64,000 nucleotides of DNA from an uncultured Cohaesibacter sp. (GTDB lineage: Bacteria > Pseudomonadota > Alphaproteobacteria > Rhizobiales > Cohaesibacteraceae). The translations under genes were made by a program, and so were the position numbers. A model generated the notes under the pieces. It was not told where the DNA came from. It worked only from the letters and a program-made list of their open reading frames with translations, and did no database searches. Position 1 is the stretch's first letter, and every line of letters starts with the position of its first letter. The stretch lies in the NCBI RefSeq assembly GCF_963667045.1, contig NZ_OY762934.1:3974501-4038500 (forward strand). The letters run 5' to 3'. This document shows positions 41,415 to 53,903 of the stretch, piece by piece.

Positions 41415-41489
41415 GCGCCCTTCGTCTAGCGGTTAGGACGCCGCCCTTTCACGGCGGTAACACGGGTTCGAGTCCCGTAGGGCGTACCA
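41415..41489 (+). tRNA. tRNA-Glu (UUC anticodon)
   Basis: A full cloverleaf is visible. The acceptor stem is GCGCCCT/AGGGCGT with a G-U closing pair. The D-arm contains GTCTAGCGGTTAGGAC. The anticodon stem is CCGCC/GGCGG with loop CTTTCAC, giving anticodon TTC. The T-arm is CGGGTTCGAGTCCCG, and CCA is encoded (41487-41489). An integrase gene lies 74 bp beyond its 3' end, so it is probably the attachment site of the adjoining element. Confidence 0.97.
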
Positions 41490-41562: not shown

Positions 41563-42582
41563 TCATTTCAGCTTTGCCATTGCATTGTCGGCCATCAGCT
41601 TCCTGTTTGCTTTCTTTACATATTTCCGTGCTTCTCCCGGGTTCGAATGGCCCAGGAACGTCATGATTTCAAACTCGGTGCCGCCTGCTTCTGCCAGCTT
41701 TGTTGCACCGGCTTTGCGCAATCCATGAGCCGTTCCAGGAACGCCGGCTTTCTTGCATTGTTTCCCAAACCAATTGCCGAACGATTCAGTTGTATAACTT
41801 TCATCAGCAGATTTGGTTTGGGTGATGAAGGTTTTCCGATGGCTTGGAATGTTGATCAGAAACTCTTTGAGTTTGTGATGAAGCGGCAGGTCCACCAATT
41901 CATCAGTTTTGCCCCTGTTGTAGCGGATCCTGTTTTCGTAAATGCTGTGCCAGCCCATCCGGTTGACGTCCTGTCGGGCAGCACCAGTGTAAAGAATAAG
42001 ATGCAAGACGATTGCTGCCAAAGAGCCCTCACCATGATGCGCCAGGAATTGAGAAATTTCTGCGTCGGTCCATGTATGGTAGCCATCCGCATTCATCTTA
42101 AAAGGTTTGACGCCCTGGGTGGGATCCGTCATCGCATAGTCAAAATCATTGATGGCATAGCGGCATAGGCGCCCAATGAGCTTTTTGAGTTTGTTGGTCG
42201 CTGCAGGGGTCTTACGCTTCTCTTCGATCAGTGCCTCAACGTGTTTTTTCTTGAGGCCAGTAATGCTGCGGTGCCCGTGATCTTTCCGAAAGCGCTCCAT
42301 CTCACAACTGAGATTGCGTTTGGTAATTGGCGCGAGATCACGGAAGGTTTTGGTTCTCATATATTGAGTGATGAGCCAATCAAAGGTGCCAGACTTGACT
42401 GTGGCTTTGGGGATCTCGAATGGCTTGTTGAGCGTGGCTGCTTGATAGGAGGCCTCGAATTCTTTCGAACCATATGTTCCTCGGATATAGCAGGAGCTGC
42501 ATCCCTTGAGTCTGAAACGCCATCGGATCTTGCCGTGGCGGTCCGTGACCCTGGTGACGCCGGGATAAGGGTTACGTTTCAT
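41563..42582 (-). CDS. Tyrosine recombinase (integrase)
   Basis: This 339-aa protein has a basic N-terminal arm-binding region, a core-binding SAM-like domain (about 70-150) and a catalytic domain. The catalytic residues are visible as the Arg in LYTGAARQDV, the His and Arg in TAHGLRKAGAT, the His in LGHSNPGE and the Tyr in ARKYVKKANR. It should integrate and excise an element at the adjacent tRNA-Glu gene. Its start overlaps the stop of a 61-aa ORF by 4 bp. It is the left boundary gene of the putative mobile island. Confidence 0.93.
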   Translation of the reverse strand: MKRNPYPGVTRVTDRHGKIRWRFRLKGCSSCYIRGTYGSKEFEASYQAATLNKPFEIPKATVKSGTFDWLITQYMRTKTFRDLAPITKRNLSCEMERFRKDHGHRSITGLKKKHVEALIEEKRKTPAATNKLKKLIGRLCRYAINDFDYAMTDPTQGVKPFKMNADGYHTWTDAEISQFLAHHGEGSLAAIVLHLILYTGAARQDVNRMGWHSIYENRIRYNRGKTDELVDLPLHHKLKEFLINIPSHRKTFITQTKSADESYTTESFGNWFGKQCKKAGVPGTAHGLRKAGATKLAEAGGTEFEIMTFLGHSNPGEARKYVKKANRKLMADNAMAKLK

Positions 42583-44856: not shown

Positions 44857-44996
44857 AACCCTATTACTCTTGAACCACCCTTAATATGTCTCTGAAAATG
44901 AGAGGTTTCTGGGGTCGTTTGCTTTTATTTCCGGATCAATGAAATGCGCCCTATTTGCTCCACAGGTCATCACAACAGACATGTGGAGCAAGGAAA

Positions 44997-46727
44997 TTGC
45001 AAGGTTATCAATACGGTCGCGTCGAGTCATATAGCCGCAAAGGCGGCCAACAAAAAAAGCGTGCCAATGGAGACAGAGCCTGGACTGTCGATGAGGTTAT
45101 CGCCGAGGCAGAGCGCAAGCCTGGATCATGTAGTCATGTGGAAGAGCCAGATCCAGACCCATTGATTATACCGGGCTCTTGTAAAAATTTTGATGAGCTA
45201 CGCCAAGCTCACAATGATGCCTGCAAAGTCAAACAGCAGGTGCCATATACAATTCCAAAGACTGGACAAAAATCCGTACGCACCAAAGCCCTACGAGTCG
45301 ACAAACACACGCTATATTCATCTGTGATTTCGCTTCCAATCCTGAGTGCTGATGCATGGGCAATGCCCGACCTGATGAACGAGTGTATGGAATTGTTTCA
45401 ACAGGTCGTCCGTTTCGAAACGGACCGCCTCGAAGAGGCAGGTGGTCAATTTGCGATGGCAGTTGTGCACCGAGACGAAGCGCATATGCATATCCATGTT
45501 TATGGCGTTGATCCTGTGCGTGGAGAGATCACCTGGCTTCATCCAGGAAAAGCTGCCGTTGATAATATCCGTCGAGGCGCTGGCTGGAAGAAAGACAATG
45601 TGGCCGAACAGGGTCGAGCCTATTGTGATGCTATGCGTCAGTGGCAAGATGATATCTATACTTCAGTGTTCAGGGATGCCGGCCTGATGCGGTATGGCCC
45701 CAAGCGATTTCGCCTGCCACGAGCTGAATATCTGCAGCAAATGGCTGCTCATGAGCAGCTTGCGGTGACGAGAAGAGATCTGCCGGAGGCTAGAAAAACA
45801 ATTGACGAAGCACATAGCCTGCAGGAAAGCATCGAGGCAAAACGGCAGGAGTTGGAAAGGGAAAAGCGGGAATTTGAAGAGCATGTGACTTCCAAGGAAT
45901 GCGAGATCAAGATTGCCGAAGAGGATCTGTTTGAACGTCATGACGAGCTATATTTCGAACAGCGGCAAAAACAGGCGGAGGGTGATCAGATCATTGCCAA
46001 GGCAGAAGAAGCAAAACAAGAGGCAGATGCAATTCGGGCCCAGGCGTTATGCCAAAAAGAACTGAATGAGCAGTATATCGAGAGATACGACGATGCTCTT
46101 GAAGCAGGCCTGGCTGCTGTCGATGATGGAGTGATTTCCTATCAACCGTCGAGTGGAGCGGGCAAGCAAGACACGCTGAGTTTTGGCCCTTCTGCTCCCA
46201 AGGATGATGAGAAGAGAGCGATTTTAAAAGCCAAATGGCAACCTGCTCTTAAAACGATCAAAAAGTATGCCCGGCGAATCTGGAGCTCAGAGGCCGCTCA
46301 GTGTGAACGCCAATTCAAGGCGGATCCTTCACTGGTCGATGTGCAGGTGAACTATAACCCTGATGCAGAGCCTCAGTCTGACGATATTCTGAAAATGGAC
46401 GTAAAGGTCAGTCTTGATAAGATCAAGGGTCTTTCAAAGCCAATGAAGCGGATTCTCGGCGGCATCGCGACTGTCATTGCTACGCAGGTTGGCAACGCCG
46501 CGATCAAGTTGGCGCGATCAAAACTGCGGGATGAATTCGACGCCCTTAAGGCCTATCGTGTCCAGCACCGACAGCAATATGGTTCCGTTGATCCAAAAGC
46601 AGAAGCCAAAATGTCTCTTCGGGAACAGGGCCTGGAAAACATGATGGCCAAGGCACCAGATCCGCGCAATGCTGAGCGACTGGAAAGACTGGACCGAAGG
46701 GTCAAAGGTGACAAGATGGATCGGTAG
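44997..46727 (+). CDS. MobV/Pre-like relaxase with coiled-coil tail
   Basis: The frame opens without ATG. TTG at 44997 with GGAG 8 nt upstream gives 576 aa and begins just before GYQYGRVESYSRKG; TTG 44955 is an alternative. The motif VVHRDEAHMHIHVYG matches the HxDExxxHxH metal-binding signature of Mob/Pre (MobV) relaxases, with Ala replacing the usual Pro. A preceding LPILSADAW and VRFETDRLEEAG fit the same domain. A coiled coil spans about residues 275-380 and a long C-terminal region follows. It should nick the element's transfer origin; no type IV secretion genes are nearby, so the element would be mobilizable rather than self-transmissible. Confidence 0.78.
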   Translation: MQGYQYGRVESYSRKGGQQKKRANGDRAWTVDEVIAEAERKPGSCSHVEEPDPDPLIIPGSCKNFDELRQAHNDACKVKQQVPYTIPKTGQKSVRTKALRVDKHTLYSSVISLPILSADAWAMPDLMNECMELFQQVVRFETDRLEEAGGQFAMAVVHRDEAHMHIHVYGVDPVRGEITWLHPGKAAVDNIRRGAGWKKDNVAEQGRAYCDAMRQWQDDIYTSVFRDAGLMRYGPKRFRLPRAEYLQQMAAHEQLAVTRRDLPEARKTIDEAHSLQESIEAKRQELEREKREFEEHVTSKECEIKIAEEDLFERHDELYFEQRQKQAEGDQIIAKAEEAKQEADAIRAQALCQKELNEQYIERYDDALEAGLAAVDDGVISYQPSSGAGKQDTLSFGPSAPKDDEKRAILKAKWQPALKTIKKYARRIWSSEAAQCERQFKADPSLVDVQVNYNPDAEPQSDDILKMDVKVSLDKIKGLSKPMKRILGGIATVIATQVGNAAIKLARSKLRDEFDALKAYRVQHRQQYGSVDPKAEAKMSLREQGLENMMAKAPDPRNAERLERLDRRVKGDKMDR

Positions 46728-46752: not shown

Positions 46753-47811
46753 TCAGCCTTTCCGGGTATTGCAGAGCAATGTTATGCAGAGGGCTGATAG
46801 CTCGGCCAAGATTCCGATATATAGTGGAACCAAGAGATCGGGCGCATATGGGTCTGTTCGAAACCGTTGCAGGACTTTCGCGATCCGCTCTACCACCGTT
46901 TCGTCTGATAATGATAAATCCTTGTGGCGACTGTCCGCCTTTCTTGCTGCTTCAATGGCCTCCGCTGCCATTGCCTCTGCTTGATTATACTGTCGTTCAT
47001 ATTCTGCGGCCTTTGGCCCGCATCTATCGCGCCGACATTCCGTCTCCCATTCATCATGGTAAAGCGCTGCAGCCCTCTTTTTCTTGTTATAGGTGATGAT
47101 ATATCCTTCAATGATGGCTGCCTGCTTTTCCCTCATATCCACTTCGTCCGTCGCTTTCTGCAGAGGCACGCATAAGAGCGTGGTGGTCGAAAGAATGGAT
47201 ATCGGGGTCGCGACGGTGATGTATAGAGCCAAGAGGCTGCCCAGGGACCATCGGTGGTTTCGGACGCATCGCAGCGCGCCACCAATAGCTGTTGATCGGC
47301 AAAGGTCCAAAATAATCATAAGAGCCATAATCGTATAGCTTGTTACAGGATCGCTCCCTCCGATCTCGTGGCCCAACCGAGCATTGATGATCATCAAGGC
47401 GACCCAGATCATTGTGCAAATGACCTGCAAATAACTTATTCGCCATATTTCCTTGGTTGGAGGCAGCGTTTCCGAGGAAGCCAATGTGCTGGGGTAATCG
47501 GTTGTGTCTGGCGACGCAGTTGGTATCGGTGAATTCTTTGGGGCCTGCTCCCACAAATCGGACTGCTTGTTGTGGTGCATCAAACCCTTCTCCTTGGCTT
47601 TCTGCATCGCGCCCCGCACCATATTGCGATCGACCGCAGCGTCCAGTCCGGCGCCTTCAAGAGCGTTGCGGAATGCTCGCTTTGTAAAGGCTCCGGGCAG
47701 TTGGGCCAATGCGGCTTCGATTTGGTGCCGATAAACCGGTGTGCCAGCAAAGGTACCGAAGAGATCGTCTGGTTCTTGCCCGGTGGTCGGGTATGATGTG
47801 CCATCGTTCAT
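46753..47811 (-). CDS. Unknown membrane protein with N-terminal winged-helix-like domain
   Basis: This 352-aa protein has a good ribosome site (aggaga). Residues 1-95 resemble a small helical or winged-helix domain (HQIEAALAQLPGAFTKRAF, DRNMVRGAMQKAKEKGL, LWEQ). Membrane helices are at about 126-147, 157-175, 192-215 and 328-347, with a long charged helical segment between the third and fourth (about 225-320). It is convergent with the relaxase gene. No family was recognised. A helix-turn-helix-type domain on a multi-pass membrane protein is unusual. Confidence 0.65.
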   Translation of the reverse strand: MNDGTSYPTTGQEPDDLFGTFAGTPVYRHQIEAALAQLPGAFTKRAFRNALEGAGLDAAVDRNMVRGAMQKAKEKGLMHHNKQSDLWEQAPKNSPIPTASPDTTDYPSTLASSETLPPTKEIWRISYLQVICTMIWVALMIINARLGHEIGGSDPVTSYTIMALMIILDLCRSTAIGGALRCVRNHRWSLGSLLALYITVATPISILSTTTLLCVPLQKATDEVDMREKQAAIIEGYIITYNKKKRAAALYHDEWETECRRDRCGPKAAEYERQYNQAEAMAAEAIEAARKADSRHKDLSLSDETVVERIAKVLQRFRTDPYAPDLLVPLYIGILAELSALCITLLCNTRKG

Positions 47812-49103
47812 TCTATTCTCCTAATCAAGACATCAGTGATTTGACCGGAAGAGCGAAGGCCCTTCCGAAAAGGAAATAGAAAGAATTCCCGGGAACGAAA
47901 AAGTTTATGCAGATTGCTGCTGCAAGACGGATTTACCGGTGATGTTTGCGCTCAGTTCGTGACAGCTGTCAGTGCATCAAGAGGTAATCGTGACGGCCAG
48001 AAGCGCACCTGATAAATGGCGCGTTGAAACCAAAAGCCGCAGCAATCATCACGTTGGTGCTGATGGTCAAAGGTGGATGTCTGATTGAATTGATAAAGCC
48101 CGCCATGACCGCTGCGGTCAGCTGGATCACACTGATCGTTCGTCACAGACGAGGTCTAGGCTTCGACAACTGCCGGTGATACGCAATTCAGGCTGGATGG
48201 ATAGGAGGGAAGGGGTGATTGCCAGTACATGACCGAAATGCCGCTATCGTGTTCTGCGTCATGCTGTCATGACAATCGTCAGAATACCCCGCCGACCATC
48301 ATGCCTTGCGAATGTTTGGACTAGTGGCTCTTATGATGGCCAAGCTGGTGTGGATGCACAACATGTTGGCTGCATGCTTTACGGTCAGGAAATTGCTGAC
48401 GACGCTGGTGACGATCAGTCTCTCATCACAATTGTCACAAAGACGGTCTGCCATCGCATGGTAATCGGAGTATCTGTTCCGCTCCTGTTTGAACGGCCAT
48501 CATAACTAGTAGCCTGTCCGTCGTGACGTCACGAAATGTGCCTGACATCCATCAGAAGCATCCTGACAACGTGATGACGAATGTGATGCCACGAACAAAA
48601 GCAAGGTCTTGGGTGGGCGGGAAGCAGCTATTTCCCGCAAGTGCGAACTCACCCTCATCTGGACATGGAAGCGGACATTCCTCTGGGATCTCGCCGCCGG
48701 ACCGAACTACCCGACAATGACGGCCGTGAGCGGATGGATGACTGCGCGGCATGGCTGGTGCAGCGAATAGTAGCCGCCGTTCGTGCGCACCGTAGCGAAG
48801 AACACTCGGGCCAACCGTGAAGGCAAGCAGCGGCCTGACGGTGGCATGCTGGGCCGCTGCGGTAAACATGGTCGAACAGCCAATCAGCCGTGACTTTGGC
48901 GCCCACACGAGACGCACAAATTGGCACAGTTTTGAGCGATGCGAGGCTATCGGACATGGCCACTGTGACATCGTTGATTTTTCGCTATCCTTTGAAAGAA
49001 AAATTATCAAGTTAATTCAAAGAGTAAGGTGGACGACGCAAAACCGGTGACCCGCTCATGTACTTATGATATTAATAGCGCTATGTGACATGGACGAAAT
49101 ATC
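47812..49103. other. Long region without a supported gene
   Basis: These 1.29 kb contain only short frames with no recognisable protein pattern, ribosome site or codon bias on either strand. They probably represent decayed sequence or recombination debris between the transfer module and the nuclease operon. The promoter of the nuclease operon should lie in the last 150 bp, which is AT-rich (around 48980-49090). Confidence 0.5.
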
Positions 49104-50657
49104 ATGAGTGAACTGGTTGAAAGCTTCCTAAAAACGCATGGGCCTTGCCTATCGAGCGGGGTCGCGGAGTATTTGGTCGTCACACTCGGGATTTCACAGG
49201 TAGCGGCGCGAAAACGGGTGTCCAGGCTCGCAGGTAATGTGCGGCGCCTCGGCTACATCACCTTTCCCCGCAAAGCCCGGTACATGTATCTTGAGCAGCA
49301 GTTCGGGTCACCCCAGTATTGGGAGAATCTAGTCGAAGCTCTCTTGCTGACCAAGTCCGCCTATGGCCATGCCATTGCTGCTTTGAGGCAGCGCGGCGGC
49401 GCGGTGCCCGAGCGGCTGTTTCCGATCGTGTGCGGCTCGCCGATAAAGCAGCTCAAACATCTGTCCGCCGAGAGCGTGTTGAAGCACCTTATTCAGGCTG
49501 GCCTATTGCAGCGGATCGCACTTCCAGGACTCGGAGACTGCATCGTGATCGTGCAGGCGGAGGGCTACTACAAGGACCTTGCCGAAATAGTTCGCGCCCG
49601 TCTCATCACCGAAGGTTTCCTACTTACGGCTGTAAGCGATTGGCTGAAGAAGCTCGGGATCGTCAGCTACGGAAAGGTGGCGATCCGCGACGGAGAAGAT
49701 CTGCCTCGCGTGGGCACGTTCGCGTGGGACTTAACCGCGCCGTCCTATCTCGGCCCGATGGTGAAGTCCGGCAAGGAGGGCAAGCAAAAGCCTGGGTTCG
49801 TCGTGTGCGACGTGCATTTGGGTGAAGATGCCTCAGTCGAGAGTGTTCGGCCGTTCGTCACAAAGTGCAAAACCTTACGAGGACTTCGCAATATCGGGCC
49901 ATGCCTGCAGATATTTGTGACCGGAGGCTATAGCAGCGAAGCTTTCAAGTTGCTGAAAGAAAACGGCATTGTGCCGGCAACGCCCGCCAATCTCTTCGGC
50001 GAGGAAATCGCGGCCGGTTTGAAGCAGCTTTCAACTGTCCTGGCGCAAGCGGCAGCGCTCTCGAAGATTGACCCGACTGCGTTCGATGAGCTGTTCAGCA
50101 AGTTCGGCAAGATTGAAGGCGCCGCCAACCAGCTCAGAGGCACCCTGTTCGAATACCTGGCCGCAGACATCTTACGCAAACACGGAGCGCATCAGGTGCG
50201 CATGAACCGAATATTCAAGCAGGAGGGCAAAGAAGCCGAGGCCGATGTGATTGCCGTGCGCGATAACCTGTCGCTGACCTTTATCGAATGCAAGGGCCAC
50301 TCGCCTTACGGCGAGACGCCGCATGACGAAGTCGAGAAATGGCTGCAGCACAACGTGCCGATCTTCTTCAAATCCTCGAGGGAGCATGCCGACTGGAAAA
50401 ACCTGCCTGTGCATTTTGAATTCTGGACGACCGCGCCCCTGACCGAGGAGTCGGTCCTTTTCCTTGAAAAGGCCAAGGAATCGATTAAGCCGACGCGCTA
50501 CACCATTGGCTGGCGTCTCGGACCGGAGGTGCTGAAAATTTGCCAGGAGACGAAGGATAATGGCCTAATCAACGCGTTTCGGAAGCACTTCATGAAGTAC
50601 AATGCAAAATCGGCAGCGATTTCCGAAGTCATCTGGCAGCAAGGGTCCAACACATGA
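49104..50657 (+). CDS. PD-(D/E)xK nuclease-like protein, first gene of candidate defence pair
   Basis: This 517-aa protein has three visible regions. Residues 1-165 look like tandem winged helices (VAEYLVVTLGISQVAARKRVSRL, ESVLKHLIQAGLLQRI). Residues 170-310 form an alpha/beta domain resembling a degenerate nuclease fold (FAWDLTAPSY at 206-215, GFVVCDVHLG at 231-240, with His where the catalytic Lys would be). Residues 340-440 form a likely active PD-(D/E)xK core: E350 in a helix, D381 in AEADVIAV, then E395 and K397 in FIECKG. The family includes restriction and Mrr-like enzymes. The stop overlaps the next gene's start by ATGA. The target and trigger are unknown. Confidence 0.8.
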   Translation: MSELVESFLKTHGPCLSSGVAEYLVVTLGISQVAARKRVSRLAGNVRRLGYITFPRKARYMYLEQQFGSPQYWENLVEALLLTKSAYGHAIAALRQRGGAVPERLFPIVCGSPIKQLKHLSAESVLKHLIQAGLLQRIALPGLGDCIVIVQAEGYYKDLAEIVRARLITEGFLLTAVSDWLKKLGIVSYGKVAIRDGEDLPRVGTFAWDLTAPSYLGPMVKSGKEGKQKPGFVVCDVHLGEDASVESVRPFVTKCKTLRGLRNIGPCLQIFVTGGYSSEAFKLLKENGIVPATPANLFGEEIAAGLKQLSTVLAQAAALSKIDPTAFDELFSKFGKIEGAANQLRGTLFEYLAADILRKHGAHQVRMNRIFKQEGKEAEADVIAVRDNLSLTFIECKGHSPYGETPHDEVEKWLQHNVPIFFKSSREHADWKNLPVHFEFWTTAPLTEESVLFLEKAKESIKPTRYTIGWRLGPEVLKICQETKDNGLINAFRKHFMKYNAKSAAISEVIWQQGSNT

Positions 50658-51148
50658 ACGACTATCGCATTGGTATCGAGAAAAGCCTCGCTCCCATCGC
50701 GCTTGAGTTTTTCGTGACTTTCACGCGCTTCGAATTCGCTTTGAAGCGCGGTAACTACGCGGCAGGCGATGAGGGCAAGAAAGCCTCTCCTGACTGGAAC
50801 GGCTTTGCGGGCGACCTAGGTGAGGATTTCTTCAAGCAAATGGAGGCGGCGCACGACGCCCAAATTTTCTTCCAGGCACCACCGAAGCGCCTGACGATCA
50901 AAGTTGGCGGCGGTGTCGAGTTCACCGATCAGGACAAGCTGACAAACACGCAGATGCTTCTGGCGGCCGTGGGCCTCGTGCGAAACAATCTATTCCATGG
51001 CGAGAAAATTTGGGTGGGCGAGCGTGATGTGGCGCTGATCCGCGCCTCCTTGTTCGTGCTCGATAGCGCGTATGCGGCAGCGAGCGCCCGAGAGGACATG
51101 AGGCAGGTCTGCGCGGCTTTCGAGTACGCCCAGATCACCCCGCACTGA
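50654..51148 (+). CDS. HEPN-like protein, second gene of candidate defence pair
   Basis: This 164-aa, largely helical protein has TRFEFALKRG near residues 24-33 and AVGLVRNNLFHGEK at 105-118. The latter contains R110-x4-H115, the R-x4-6-H signature of HEPN ribonucleases and toxins, in the frequent local form RNxLFHG. HEPN proteins often degrade RNA to arrest infected cells, or act as nucleotidyltransferase-controlled toxins. It is translationally coupled to the nuclease-like gene and followed by a hairpin terminator, so the two form a closed unit. HEPN identity is inferred from motif and length only. Confidence 0.72.
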   Translation: MNDYRIGIEKSLAPIALEFFVTFTRFEFALKRGNYAAGDEGKKASPDWNGFAGDLGEDFFKQMEAAHDAQIFFQAPPKRLTIKVGGGVEFTDQDKLTNTQMLLAAVGLVRNNLFHGEKIWVGERDVALIRASLFVLDSAYAAASAREDMRQVCAAFEYAQITPH

Positions 51149-51485
51149 CAAAGAGAGCGCCGGATGATCCGGCACTCTCGCCTGACATTCGAAGGACGGA
51201 CTGCCTACGGCTCATATGAACCATACTTATATGTCTGCTGCTCGGATCAGTTGACCCAAAAGCTGCCATTCTGGTTGACCTGCGCCCCCAAAACATCGAC
51301 CTAGCTTCTCCCTAGAGAGTACATTCACCACCTCCAAAAACCGATACTGCACGGTCTCAGAAATCGGCCGTAAACTGTTTACCTGCGGCGCGACATTCCA
51401 AACGTCACATTGGGTTGTCGATCTATTGATTGGCCGTTAAAAACGCAATTTTGCTGAAGATACATCTTACGCACTTCTATGGGAC
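51149..51485. other. Intergenic region between convergent genes
   Basis: Apart from the hairpin at its left edge, these 337 bp show no gene and no clear repeat. The flanking genes converge. Confidence 0.4.
51153..51179 (+). terminator. Hairpin after the nuclease-HEPN operon
   Basis: gagag-c-gccgga (51153-51164) pairs with tccggc-a-ctctc (51168-51179): 11 pairs and one mismatch, loop TGA. It starts 4 bp after the HEPN stop codon. There is no T tract, so it may be a processing barrier or weak terminator. Confidence 0.55.
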
Positions 51486-52694
51486 CTATTCGTCACCGTA
51501 ATCGTGGTCCTCTGGCTCGAATATATCCACTTCGCCGAGATCGACTTCGTGATAACAGTCCTCGATTTCGCTATCGTCGATGTCGACCGTTTCGTCTTCG
51601 GTCGCGAGGTCGTAAACAAGAAGTGTTAGAGACGCACGAACGTTCAATTCTTCTTCGACTTCAACCGACCGACTTCCCATCGATAACGACTCACCGTCTA
51701 CGCCGTCCCATATCGAGAAACTGAGTTCGACCGGTACATTTACTAATAGGTCAAGCGGTACACTGGCAACTACCTGCAGTCCTTCACCATCATCGATCTC
51801 TTCGACGTCGATGATGTCGATTTCGGATTCTTCCGGCAATGTTACAGCTTTCAGTTCCCCCGCCATGGCATAAAGCTCGACTTCACCATACATCGGGTAT
51901 GCTCTCGCCGTAAACTCGAGGCGCTCCACATCGGCGGCAATGAGTCGCTTGACTTGGTCGTTTCCAGCGCCTTCTAGCGAAGCGTGGATAGCAGCCCGGA
52001 GTCCGATCGGCGCGTCTGTCACGAGCGCTAGGGCACGTTCGATCTGAGAAACAAGGAAAAGGCGGTCCGACTGCTCGCAGTACGCTCGCCAATCACCATC
52101 GTTGGATACGACCAGTATCCAGATTCCTTCTTGCGAAGCCCTTTTCTCCAAAGCATGTAGAGCGAGTGCGTCAGGAAACTCGTTCTTTTTCCTACCCGTG
52201 CCAAATGGTGGTTCGCCTGCAAAATAAGAATCGAAAATAGTCGCAGTTGGCACAAGCGCAGTATCGTCCAACACTTCGCATCCAGTGTCATTGACGAACT
52301 TATCCCACCGGAGGTTGGCCGTATCGGAAGGCGATCTGCTTCCTGATATTTGCTCCAAAATGTGTTCTCGCGTCGGGGCACGTGTGTCAAAGGCAAACAA
52401 TGCTTGTCCGATGCTTTTCCTTGCTTCTTGAAGCGCGTTCGTTGCCGCCTTAGTCATATGCATGACCACTTCCTTTGCAACTGTTCCAGAAAGTATAAAT
52501 CGGAAGGGACGCGCCTTCAGGCTTGCTAGCGCCTGCATTGATGCTGAATTGAGTTGTAGTCGTTTCTGGTCGAAAATATTTGTGTCAACGGAAATGGCTT
52601 TAACGCGGTCCGCCGCCAGATGTGCCTTCACCTGTTTGTCATCTACAATCGGCATTTTGACGTTTGTCCCGCTGGTTTGAAGGGCTCCAATCAT
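51486..52694 (-). CDS. PIN-domain protein, DUF4935-like
   Basis: From the ATG at 52694 the protein is 402 aa. The N-terminal half is a PIN nuclease fold: VDTNIF (D37), a conserved Glu at 75, NEFPDALALHAL (E172, D175) and VSNDGDWRAYC (D199, D201). PIN domains cleave RNA or DNA with Mg2+. The C-terminal half (about 230-402) is acidic and beta-rich (ESEIDIIDVEEIDDGEG), possibly a substrate- or partner-binding domain. DUF4935-type proteins occur in accessory islands and are suspected toxins or defence nucleases. No antitoxin-like small gene is adjacent. Confidence 0.78.
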   Translation of the reverse strand: MIGALQTSGTNVKMPIVDDKQVKAHLAADRVKAISVDTNIFDQKRLQLNSASMQALASLKARPFRFILSGTVAKEVVMHMTKAATNALQEARKSIGQALFAFDTRAPTREHILEQISGSRSPSDTANLRWDKFVNDTGCEVLDDTALVPTATIFDSYFAGEPPFGTGRKKNEFPDALALHALEKRASQEGIWILVVSNDGDWRAYCEQSDRLFLVSQIERALALVTDAPIGLRAAIHASLEGAGNDQVKRLIAADVERLEFTARAYPMYGEVELYAMAGELKAVTLPEESEIDIIDVEEIDDGEGLQVVASVPLDLLVNVPVELSFSIWDGVDGESLSMGSRSVEVEEELNVRASLTLLVYDLATEDETVDIDDSEIEDCYHEVDLGEVDIFEPEDHDYGDE

Positions 52695-53090
52695 GAAGCT
52701 TTCAAGCAAATTTGCAGCAATAGGATGTGTGCTTCAAGGTTAGGAAACTGGCTTACCAACCAAAAAGATCCCAAAGCGGTCTAACGGTGGATTTCGGCTG
52801 GTTCGCCAGAATCGTGCTCAGTCATATGCCATGAAAGTTCTGCGCTGCGGCGAATGTCGCAAATGACCTCATGCCGGTAGCAGGATCGCTGAAAATGCTG
52901 CGTTGTAATCGAATGGCCTCAAAGAGGAAACGATTTTGCTGCCAATGCCGGAAGACAAGCGGCAGCTAATGGGATAGAAGACCGGCCATTTGCTGTGCGT
53001 GAATATCACGACATCTGAGCACACCTTCAAGCTGTGCGGCCAGCCATTGGAACACCGCTCTGACCCACTCGAAACACTCGCTCCAGCCCT
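52695..53090. other. Intergenic region with a repeat fragment
   Basis: No gene is seen in 396 bp. A degenerate repeat fragment begins at 52892. The rest probably includes the promoter of the PIN gene. Confidence 0.4.
52892..52965 (+). repeat. Partial, diverged copy of a dispersed repeat
   Basis: The sequence aaaatgctgcgttgtaatcg, then aatggc, resembles the start of the copy at 56077. Similarity fades after about 30 bp, so it may be a decayed or unrelated copy. Confidence 0.35.
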
Positions 53091-53903
53091 TTAGTCTTTC
53101 CCATCTGCCCACTGCATGAGATTAGGATCAGTGCGGAAGTCTCCCACTTGGAACAGAGCATCGATCTTCTGCAGCTTTGTCATTTCGTCGGCAGGAATTT
53201 CGGCTTCAATTCCGAATTTCTCCTGCAAACCCAGCGTTGTTTGTTCTACCTTGTTTAAAACGAAGCGAGCAACATTTCCAGTCTCAGAGATTTCAAACAG
53301 GTTTTTAATTTCAAACTGTAGCGTTCCAAGTTCCTGGTGGCGTTTTCTATGGCCTTCTGCATCCTTGATAGGTGAGCCAAATTCCTCTGAGATTGCACTT
53401 TGAGCTTTCGAGAGCGCCTTGGAGAGAGAGGGTTTTATTTTTGTATACAAGTGATCTACGGCATCAAATACCATCACTCTATATACTTTCTCCTTAAGTG
53501 GTAGAAAGTCTATATGCTGACCAAGTGTATTGTGTTGGTCGACGAGCTCTTCATAAAGTGCCCAACGATCGGACCATTGCGAGCCTCCGCCCCATCTCCC
53601 TGCCATTACCTTCATCATCACAATTTCGCGGGTATAAACTTGTACGATGCTTTTGAGGCGTTCGATAAGGTCGGCGGCCTCTTTCTGCTTGTCTTCCCAG
53701 AGTTCGGCTTCGAACCCCAATCCCTTGAATCTCTTGAAACGGGAGACGTTGCCATAGATCAAACAAAGAAAAAACATGACGAAGGCCGCAGTGGCCCCAG
53801 TCACTTCGGCCTTGAGGAAAGACAGGATGCTGAACGCTAGGAAAATTAGTGCGATCAAGAACAGGAAGCAGCGCTCCCAGTTGCTTTTAGTCCAGGCCCA
53901 CAT
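53091..53903 (-). CDS. Two-TM membrane protein of unknown function
   Basis: This 270-aa protein starts after a gaggga ribosome site. It has two adjacent membrane helices at about 11-32 and 36-53, then a cytoplasmic, helical, charged domain of about 215 residues (FKGLGFEAELWEDKQKEAADLI). Several helix breaks suggest a folded bundle rather than one coiled coil. The motif GFEAELWE recalls two-TM proteins in bacterial islands, but no named family was recognised. It is encoded behind the PIN gene with a 396-bp gap and may be independent. Confidence 0.65.
   Translation of the reverse strand: MWAWTKSNWERCFLFLIALIFLAFSILSFLKAEVTGATAAFVMFFLCLIYGNVSRFKRFKGLGFEAELWEDKQKEAADLIERLKSIVQVYTREIVMMKVMAGRWGGGSQWSDRWALYEELVDQHNTLGQHIDFLPLKEKVYRVMVFDAVDHLYTKIKPSLSKALSKAQSAISEEFGSPIKDAEGHRKRHQELGTLQFEIKNLFEISETGNVARFVLNKVEQTTLGLQEKFGIEAEIPADEMTKLQKIDALFQVGDFRTDPNLMQWADGKD

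Follow-up and report, generated by a model that had tools for sequence, protein, structure and literature searches.

A conserved nuclease-like core gene with a 21-bp upstream element and a variable second gene: a candidate modular defence locus in a probable Cohaesibacter island

The locus and its probable island setting

We analysed two overlapping forward-strand genes within a window of 64,000 nt (the whole stretch of DNA under study). The first ORF (49104..50657, +), here called the core gene, encodes a 517-aa protein whose PD-(D/E)xK region (50121..50513, +) contains E350, D381 and E395-x-K397 and was located by invariant residues and weak family matches. The second ORF (50654..51148, +) encodes a HEPN-like protein of 164 aa with E27-x3-K31 and R110-x4-H115, and is joined to the core gene by an ATGA overlap at 50654. 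Folding revealed a hairpin at 51153..51179 (+), which starts 4 nt past the stop codon of the HEPN-like gene and lacks a T-run. This stretch reaches -23.1 kcal/mol (z -3.3), and 1 of 200 shuffles was equally good. No methyltransferase was found in the two-gene unit, as judged by the ORF list. The reading frames, the overlap, the positions of the named residues and the hairpin agree with the initial annotation of the locus.

Upstream of the core gene we found a 21-bp element, TATTAATAGCGCTATGTGACA (49070..49090, +), which consists of a -10-like part and a version of AGCGCWGTGTGACA, and which is common to nearly all relatives. Just upstream of it lies an imperfect palindrome, TCATgtacttATGA (49056..49069), which is weak in the window. 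The element is the strongest signal in the locus, and it was missed by the initial annotation.

The pair had also been described as part of a mobile island. A tRNA-Glu (TTC) gene (41415..41489, +), likely the attachment site judging from the adjoining integrase, is accompanied by a tyrosine integrase gene (41563..42582, -; Pfam PF00589, E 4e-9) and by a weak MobV-like relaxase gene (44955..46727, +; NCBIfam MobV, E 0.001, far below the cut-off). Because these three genes lie nearby, an island around the pair is likely, and the core gene is absent from all 17 same-genus genomes searched. The right end of this island was not found: an att repeat search gave no second copy of the tRNA-Glu 3' end in the window, and a near-repeat of the tRNA end at contig position 4061334, considered as the right end, proved to be another tRNA-Glu gene. 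The third-position GC of the core and HEPN-like genes is 0.70 and 0.73, compared with 0.39-0.59 in the surrounding ORFs from 41.5 kb on, and resembles that of many chromosomal genes before 41 kb. Since these values lie above those of the surrounding ORFs and are chromosome-like, the pair may have entered the island separately.

The core family and its upstream element

Relatives of the core were found on 359 of 72,556 plasmids, and in 334 of these a single place matches 80% or more of the query. A profile scan covering 84,980 species by one genome apiece gave 28 core loci; as it relies on short peptide patterns, many cores will escape it. A single-sequence scan of genome contigs gave no core relatives. 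Among 5,426 complete E. coli genomes, an IncF-type core was present in 71 and a small-plasmid-type core in 20; cover reached 80% or more in 63 and 15 of these, respectively. In whole-genome samples the core is rare (3/101, 1/385, 2/398 and 6/397, with the window's own genome counted each time). No core was found among annotated phages or by the profile scan of viral contigs; two distinct viral contigs with a core were found via the element. Annotations of the core read hypothetical protein or NERD-domain protein.

The settings of these copies are diverse. The annotation of one 3.6-kb plasmid shows only the core and two replication genes, in IncF plasmids it lies near ccdAB, at another locus it is inside a conjugative module, and Alkalimonas holds three identical copies. 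Complete Gabija lies near the core at three loci, and DarTG and a type III R-M system were also seen; these defence neighbours are among ten neighbour proteins picked by eye, with no control set. The comparisons below use 54 core loci, which include near-copies (L004/L127, L018/L099 and the IncF group) and one locus entered twice (L044/L092); 40 cores are under 90% identical. Before this count we set aside all but one of the Alkalimonas copies, L107 (a near-copy from a viral contig), loci that had been refetched under another id and a 65-residue fragment (L085); a core found later (L128) lies outside the 54.

The core protein has a winged-helix-like N-terminus (about aa 1-66), a middle domain (about 200-330) and a predicted C-terminal PD-(D/E)xK nuclease domain (about 340-470). 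E350, D381, E395 and K397 are invariant in all 51 full-length relatives, whose pairwise identity falls as low as 23%, and in 26/26 members of a smaller alignment; the larger set comprises 51 of the 54 loci, the truncated L044/L092 and the split L118 being left out. The window protein matches Mrr_cat at E 0.001, below every Pfam cut-off. Scanned singly against Pfam, with matches counted up to E 0.1, 26 core relatives gave weak matches to DUF4143 (9/26), NERD (5/26, best 1.4e-5), DUF234 (5/26), Mrr_cat (3/26) and the Card1 endonuclease family (2/26). These five families have the PD-(D/E)xK fold in common. The best solved-structure match of the core profile is the Card1 nuclease domain (E 0.016). 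The assignment thus combines motifs with weak family matches, and the invariance of the four residues at 23% identity is good evidence that the core is an active PD-(D/E)xK nuclease, as predicted from its sequence.

The N-terminal region contains G13, P14, R36 and R41, invariant in 51/51 relatives, and its first 66 residues look marginally winged-helix-like. HTH_AsnC, HTH_24 and HTH_10 were each matched by 1 of 26 members at E of about 0.08-0.09, and the N-terminal profile found no credible match among solved structures. The sequence data support the initial annotation in so far as it describes a PD-(D/E)xK-type protein with a DNA-binding-like N-terminus. In the middle domain, D236 and K254 are invariant. 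We considered a second, degenerate nuclease fold there and dropped it because searches of solved structures and Pfam gave no credible match.

The element, TATTAATAGCGCAGTGTGACA, was placed by best match in the stretch of about 90 bp upstream of each core. It occurs with at most 3 mismatches in 43/54 core loci and with at most 6 in 51/54; among the 40 cores under 90% identical the counts are 35/40 and 39/40. Elsewhere in the same loci, 1,324,820 positions held no site at up to 5 mismatches and four at up to 6. The exceptions are L044/L092, a double entry of one locus that lacks the start of its gene because of truncation, and the Sinorhizobium meliloti locus L005, which keeps the core N-terminal region and has no element (11 mismatches). 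In 222 core pairs whose proteins share 20-30% identity, identity within the element is 81%, compared with 33% for the preceding 21 bp and 27% for the positions 24-45 bp before the element; this comparison covers only loci in which the element was found, placed by best match, which favours high identity. Such conservation of a DNA site is unusual: the element persists in alpha-, beta- and gammaproteobacteria, whether the locus is chromosomal or belongs to a plasmid or viral contig, with cores down to 23% identity.

We then counted element sites in whole genomes. With at most 3 mismatches, the genome of the window has a single site, before the core. Under the same mismatch limit, 36 sites were found in 33 of 35 genomes or records, versus 2 for the reversed pattern, and the counts equal the known core copies apart from one surplus site. 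This surplus site, in an Erythrobacter genome, precedes a second, divergent and previously unseen core (E 1.5e-144), which indicates that the element can be used as a search tag. Alkalimonas has three sites for its three cores, and in the two records without a site the element of the core differs at 4 positions. A regulon governed by the element was not supported, as the window's own genome has one site and elsewhere sites are as many as core copies.

In viral contigs the outcome was mixed, with 17 stretches matching a 16-mer of the element. A core accompanies each of the three sites that differ from the 21-mer by no more than 1 mismatch, two of them being near-copies of one locus. No core was found within the fetched stretch at the six sites with 2-3 mismatches (one of which lies at the edge of its stretch), nor in the remaining eight stretches. 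Scans with variant elements returned 0, 1 and 0 stretches, and the one found carries no core.

The element lies -1 to 36 nt from the start codon that the script selected, and several gammaproteobacteria have it immediately before the ATG. A palindrome with an arm of at least 5 occurs in the 24 bp before the element in 20/51 loci, compared with 9.6% of random places. The arm of the window palindrome is 4, which 33% of random places attain. Many alphaproteobacterial relatives read NCATGnnnnCATGN at this position, where the outer bases change in pairs. Because a -10-like half precedes the nearly fixed AGCGCWGTGTGACA, the sequence suggests that the element is a promoter plus operator. This raises the question of whether a nuclease reads its own promoter.

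The position behind the core and the HEPN-like family

The HEPN-like protein was aligned with its relatives, giving 34 sequences from the window, three Sphingomonadales, six plasmids and 24 viral loci. R110, N111, H115 and E27 are invariant in 34/34, and K31 is kept in at least 90%. The protein has the Rx4-6H motif with a polar residue after the arginine (R110-N111-x3-H115) and the Ex3[KR] motif (E27, K31), and the HEPN motif description given in PMC3710099 fits both. No family match was found in Pfam, NCBIfam or PADLOC, and one PHROG with function not known matches at 1.5e-12. Other matches were weak: the family profile reached a CRISPR-associated protein among solved structures (E 0.06), the best PADLOC value for the family was 0.0093, CARF_HEPN was matched by 1/34 relatives (E 0.0096) and the PD-T4-5 model by 1/34 (E 0.047). 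Identity with the pEK499_p136 HEPN family was tried and rejected, since the profile comparison gives no match. Profile matches to known HEPN proteins are weak or failing, and the HEPN fold proposed in the initial annotation is likely, as an assignment from invariant motifs.

Relatives of the 164-aa protein occur in 20 plasmid records and at 35 viral-contig loci. Within the stretches fetched, no core lies next to them at the six plasmid loci inspected or at any of the 35 viral loci; most members of the HEPN family are thus unlinked to the core nuclease. On a Rhizobium leguminosarum plasmid (L011), a HEPN of the window's subfamily lies 1 nt behind genes annotated as an AAA ATPase and an ATP-dependent helicase. 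Qat adjoins one HEPN relative.

A HEPN of the window's kind is present in 4/54 core loci, always overlapping the core and nowhere else in those loci. The overlaps are 4, 8, 11 and 4 nt in the window, a Sphingomonadales MAG, an Altererythrobacter MAG and Sphingomonas jinjuensis, respectively, the last two being near-copies. These overlaps point to translational coupling of the two genes. A search for co-occurrence, which the initial annotation had suggested, thus recovered the overlapping pair in three other genomes, with the HEPN absent from 50/54 core loci.

Other lineages carry other genes at this position. A TIR gene lies 9 bp behind a core that is 69% identical, and among the closest kin of the window core the tail gene is either absent (Jiella; Acinetobacter and Klebsiella plasmids) or TIR. 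DUF4238 and a small gene follow the core at five IncF/IncR-type plasmid loci (Pfam-tested in one); at four of these five an annotated HEPN family nuclease lies upstream, which is pEK499_p136 by Pfam in the one tested. DUF2513 overlaps the core by 4 nt on an Agrobacterium plasmid, DUF2971 follows it in Pantoea and a KAP NTPase in Sinorhizobium meliloti, AbiE genes lie 104-110 bp behind it at three Rhizobium loci, and genes of 535 and 277 aa, for which the Pfam search was empty, follow it at two more loci. At 25/54 loci, the 160 bp that follow the core contain no start of a same-strand ORF of 90 aa.

DNA homology stops within 50 bp of the core stop in five of the compared pairs (window/L017, window/L087, L039/L040, L090/L040 and L033/L008), extends about 300 bp past it when L040 is compared with L041 and L042, and crosses the tail genes in L024/L027 and L018/L099. 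As 25/54 loci have no close ORF and homology continues past the stop in some pairs, the slot may be partly opportunistic. The HEPN pairing requires two changes on the core tree, which is a quick version, and two on the HEPN tree. Two independent recruitments are favoured by both trees; we dropped this scenario because the AU test does not reject a single origin (p 0.21). Taken together, sequence comparison indicates that the core nuclease is the conserved part and that the slot behind its stop varies by lineage. The description of the pair as a closed unit is therefore not supported, as most core loci are without this HEPN and its family occurs mostly elsewhere.

Interpretation and relation to known systems

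The widespread core family with its varying tail genes suggests a modular defence unit. Our main reading, to which we assign a probability of about 0.5, sees this locus as one form of a mobile cassette built around a single defence nuclease, the core, which controls its own expression and is followed by an exchangeable effector. The winged helix would bind the 21-bp element in the promoter of the core gene, keeping expression low. When a phage or plasmid enters, the core would be freed or induced, and its nuclease would then attack foreign DNA in a manner resembling type IV restriction, or shut the infected cell down. The HEPN would add an RNA-cutting abortive arm, with the ATGA overlap setting the translation ratio, and the TIR gene of a close relative may play the same abortive role. 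That the core binds the element and attacks DNA, that the HEPN is active and that the locus defends against phages are all inferences from sequence. If the main reading is right, it adds a modular defence cassette carried on Enterobacteriaceae plasmids and in environmental bacteria. A more specific version, which we regard as a long shot, treats the operator as a safety catch: the nuclease would be parked inactive on its own element and released by invader takeover or loss of the element, and the slot would take the death effector of the lineage (HEPN, TIR or others).

Toxin-antitoxin loci typically have a fixed gene order, an overlap, an operator at the promoter and a small second gene, and the gene order, overlap, operator-like promoter site and small HEPN-like second gene found here fit that layout. 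The core would then be a DNA-binding autorepressor and antitoxin, the HEPN its toxin, and other lineages would pair the core with other toxins. In having a second gene that can be exchanged, the locus resembles promiscuous antitoxins, for example Panacea (PMC10440598). However, a close same-strand ORF of 90 aa is missing from 25/54 loci, the core stands solo on the 3.6-kb plasmid, and a nuclease site invariant in 51/51 relatives would be unneeded in an antitoxin. The AbiEii toxin in the Rhizobium loci already has its own DUF6088-type partner, and the conserved two-gene pairing of type II and IV toxin-antitoxin systems was not found among the 54 loci, where the HEPN accompanies four and no single partner is common. 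We consider this explanation unlikely.

It is rather unlikely, in our judgement, that the core is a stand-alone type IV-like restriction nuclease behind which the HEPN landed as a passenger. The weak similarity to Mrr_cat and NERD agrees with this explanation, as do the 50/54 core loci without this HEPN and the spread of the HEPN family across phages and plasmids, mostly unlinked to the core. Yet the same HEPN subfamily occupies the same overlapping place in two distinct lineages of the core (a single origin having AU p 0.21), and the series of 4, 8, 11 and 4 nt overlaps suggests that translation of the two genes is coupled. We also weighed a role in plasmid or island housekeeping (maintenance, exclusion of related elements or DNA processing) in place of phage defence, to which the presence on 359 of 72,556 plasmids, the proximity to ccdAB in IncF plasmids and the position inside a conjugative module would correspond. 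This seems improbable, as the core is also found at chromosomal loci and on viral contigs, with defence genes near several copies, and as copies do not exclude each other, given that Alkalimonas holds three identical ones. The self-regulated defence nuclease with an exchangeable effector remains our preferred reading.

Comparison with known systems gave weak and partial similarities. In PADLOC-DB 2.0.0 we found no firm match of both proteins to one named system; the best PADLOC matches, 1.3e-4 for the nuclease part of the core and 0.0093 for the HEPN family, belong to different systems. No firm family model for either protein was found in Pfam, NCBIfam or PADLOC, and a literature search, whose coverage left out most subscription papers, found no name for the core family. 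This agrees with the initial annotation, which recognised no named system in this domain combination.

Card1/Can2-type CARF-PD-(D/E)xK proteins, which are type III CRISPR ancillary nucleases, contain the closest solved nuclease domain (Card1, E 0.016), and one PADLOC CARF_PDDEXK model matches 7/26 core members weakly (best 1.3e-4). Unlike these proteins, which have a CARF domain, the core matches in the nuclease part only and has a winged-helix-like N-terminus instead. No CARF domain was found in the core, as the PADLOC matches of the window protein span aa 326-400 only. Mrr type IV and NERD proteins are weakly similar in the nuclease region, and the core unit is likewise without a methylase. 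In contrast to them, the core comes with a 21-bp promoter element of its own and an exchangeable tail gene, and the window protein falls below the Pfam cut-off.

The 164-aa protein resembles HEPN toxins known from defence and toxin-antitoxin systems, among them pEK499_p136 and PD-T4-5, in its Rx4H and Ex3K motifs, its size and its overlapping second position, whereas it has no Pfam family and the comparison with pEK499_p136 fails. The pair at L011, called Gabija-like from the annotation of its ATPase and helicase alone, has a HEPN tail of the same subfamily as the window's; the ATPase and helicase genes before it show no relation to the core. At another Gabija-like/HEPN locus the gap is wider than the 1 nt of L011. 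Other PD-(D/E)xK and HEPN systems are described in PMC9519451 and PMC10952713. According to PMC10440598, Panacea is a promiscuous antitoxin with a conserved first gene and an exchangeable second gene; unlike Panacea, the core has an invariant nuclease site and often stands without a close second gene. We rate modular nuclease-based defence as a known kind of system, and the family-bound 21-bp element as the surprising part of this one.

Probable recent movement of the core gene

The solo core nuclease genes of Agaricicola, Devosia, Paracoccus, Brevundimonas and one further genome (L039:1091-2704; L040-L042:6001-7614; L090:7009-8646) showed 92-96% DNA identity. In two pairs of these loci, the common DNA extended hardly beyond the gene and 140-190 bp upstream. 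Because the identity is so high and these pairs have little else in common, the solo core gene and its promoter appear to have spread recently among these hosts.

DNA comparison also revealed three copies of a core-bearing segment in Alkalimonas amylolytica (L029, L030, L031), 100% identical over at least 7.7 kb. The segment contains the core gene, a gene for a 1098-aa protein and two further genes, and is probably a mobile element that has no name.

The core of Rhizobium sp. SSA_523 (L118:4001-5493) is annotated in two pieces. A viral contig copy (L112:4362-5918) adjoins genes resembling, by eye, phage packaging genes, whose vicinity is a common site of prophage cargo.

Genes adjoining the core

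In the window, the pair is adjoined by a PIN-domain gene (51486-52709; PF16289, E 6e-21) and by a second gene (53091-53903), whose 270-aa product has a hydrophobic N-terminus and gave no firm match to anything. Inside the island, a 352-aa protein with hydrophobic stretches mid-protein (46753-47811) had no Pfam match.

On IncF/IncR-type plasmids, a HEPN gene of another family and a ~260-aa gene without a Pfam match lie immediately upstream of the core (L006:4501-5793; L097:4512-5773; L124:2505-3787); the HEPN gene of L006 belongs to the pEK499_p136 family. In an Erythrobacter genome (L025:7578-9182), the gene for a 535-aa protein, which belongs to no known Pfam family, begins 5 bp downstream of the core.

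HEPN relatives behind Gabija-like gene pairs

On a Rhizobium leguminosarum plasmid (L011:987-5444), genes annotated as AAA ATPase and ATP-dependent helicase are followed, after a 1-nt gap, by a HEPN gene that belongs to the same subfamily as the one in the window. Such a HEPN gene also lies downstream of an annotated AAA ATPase and ATP-dependent helicase on a Paraburkholderia caribensis plasmid (L012:1136-5447). From their annotation, both ATPase-helicase pairs resemble Gabija, and the arrangement with HEPN as the third gene may be a three-gene Gabija.
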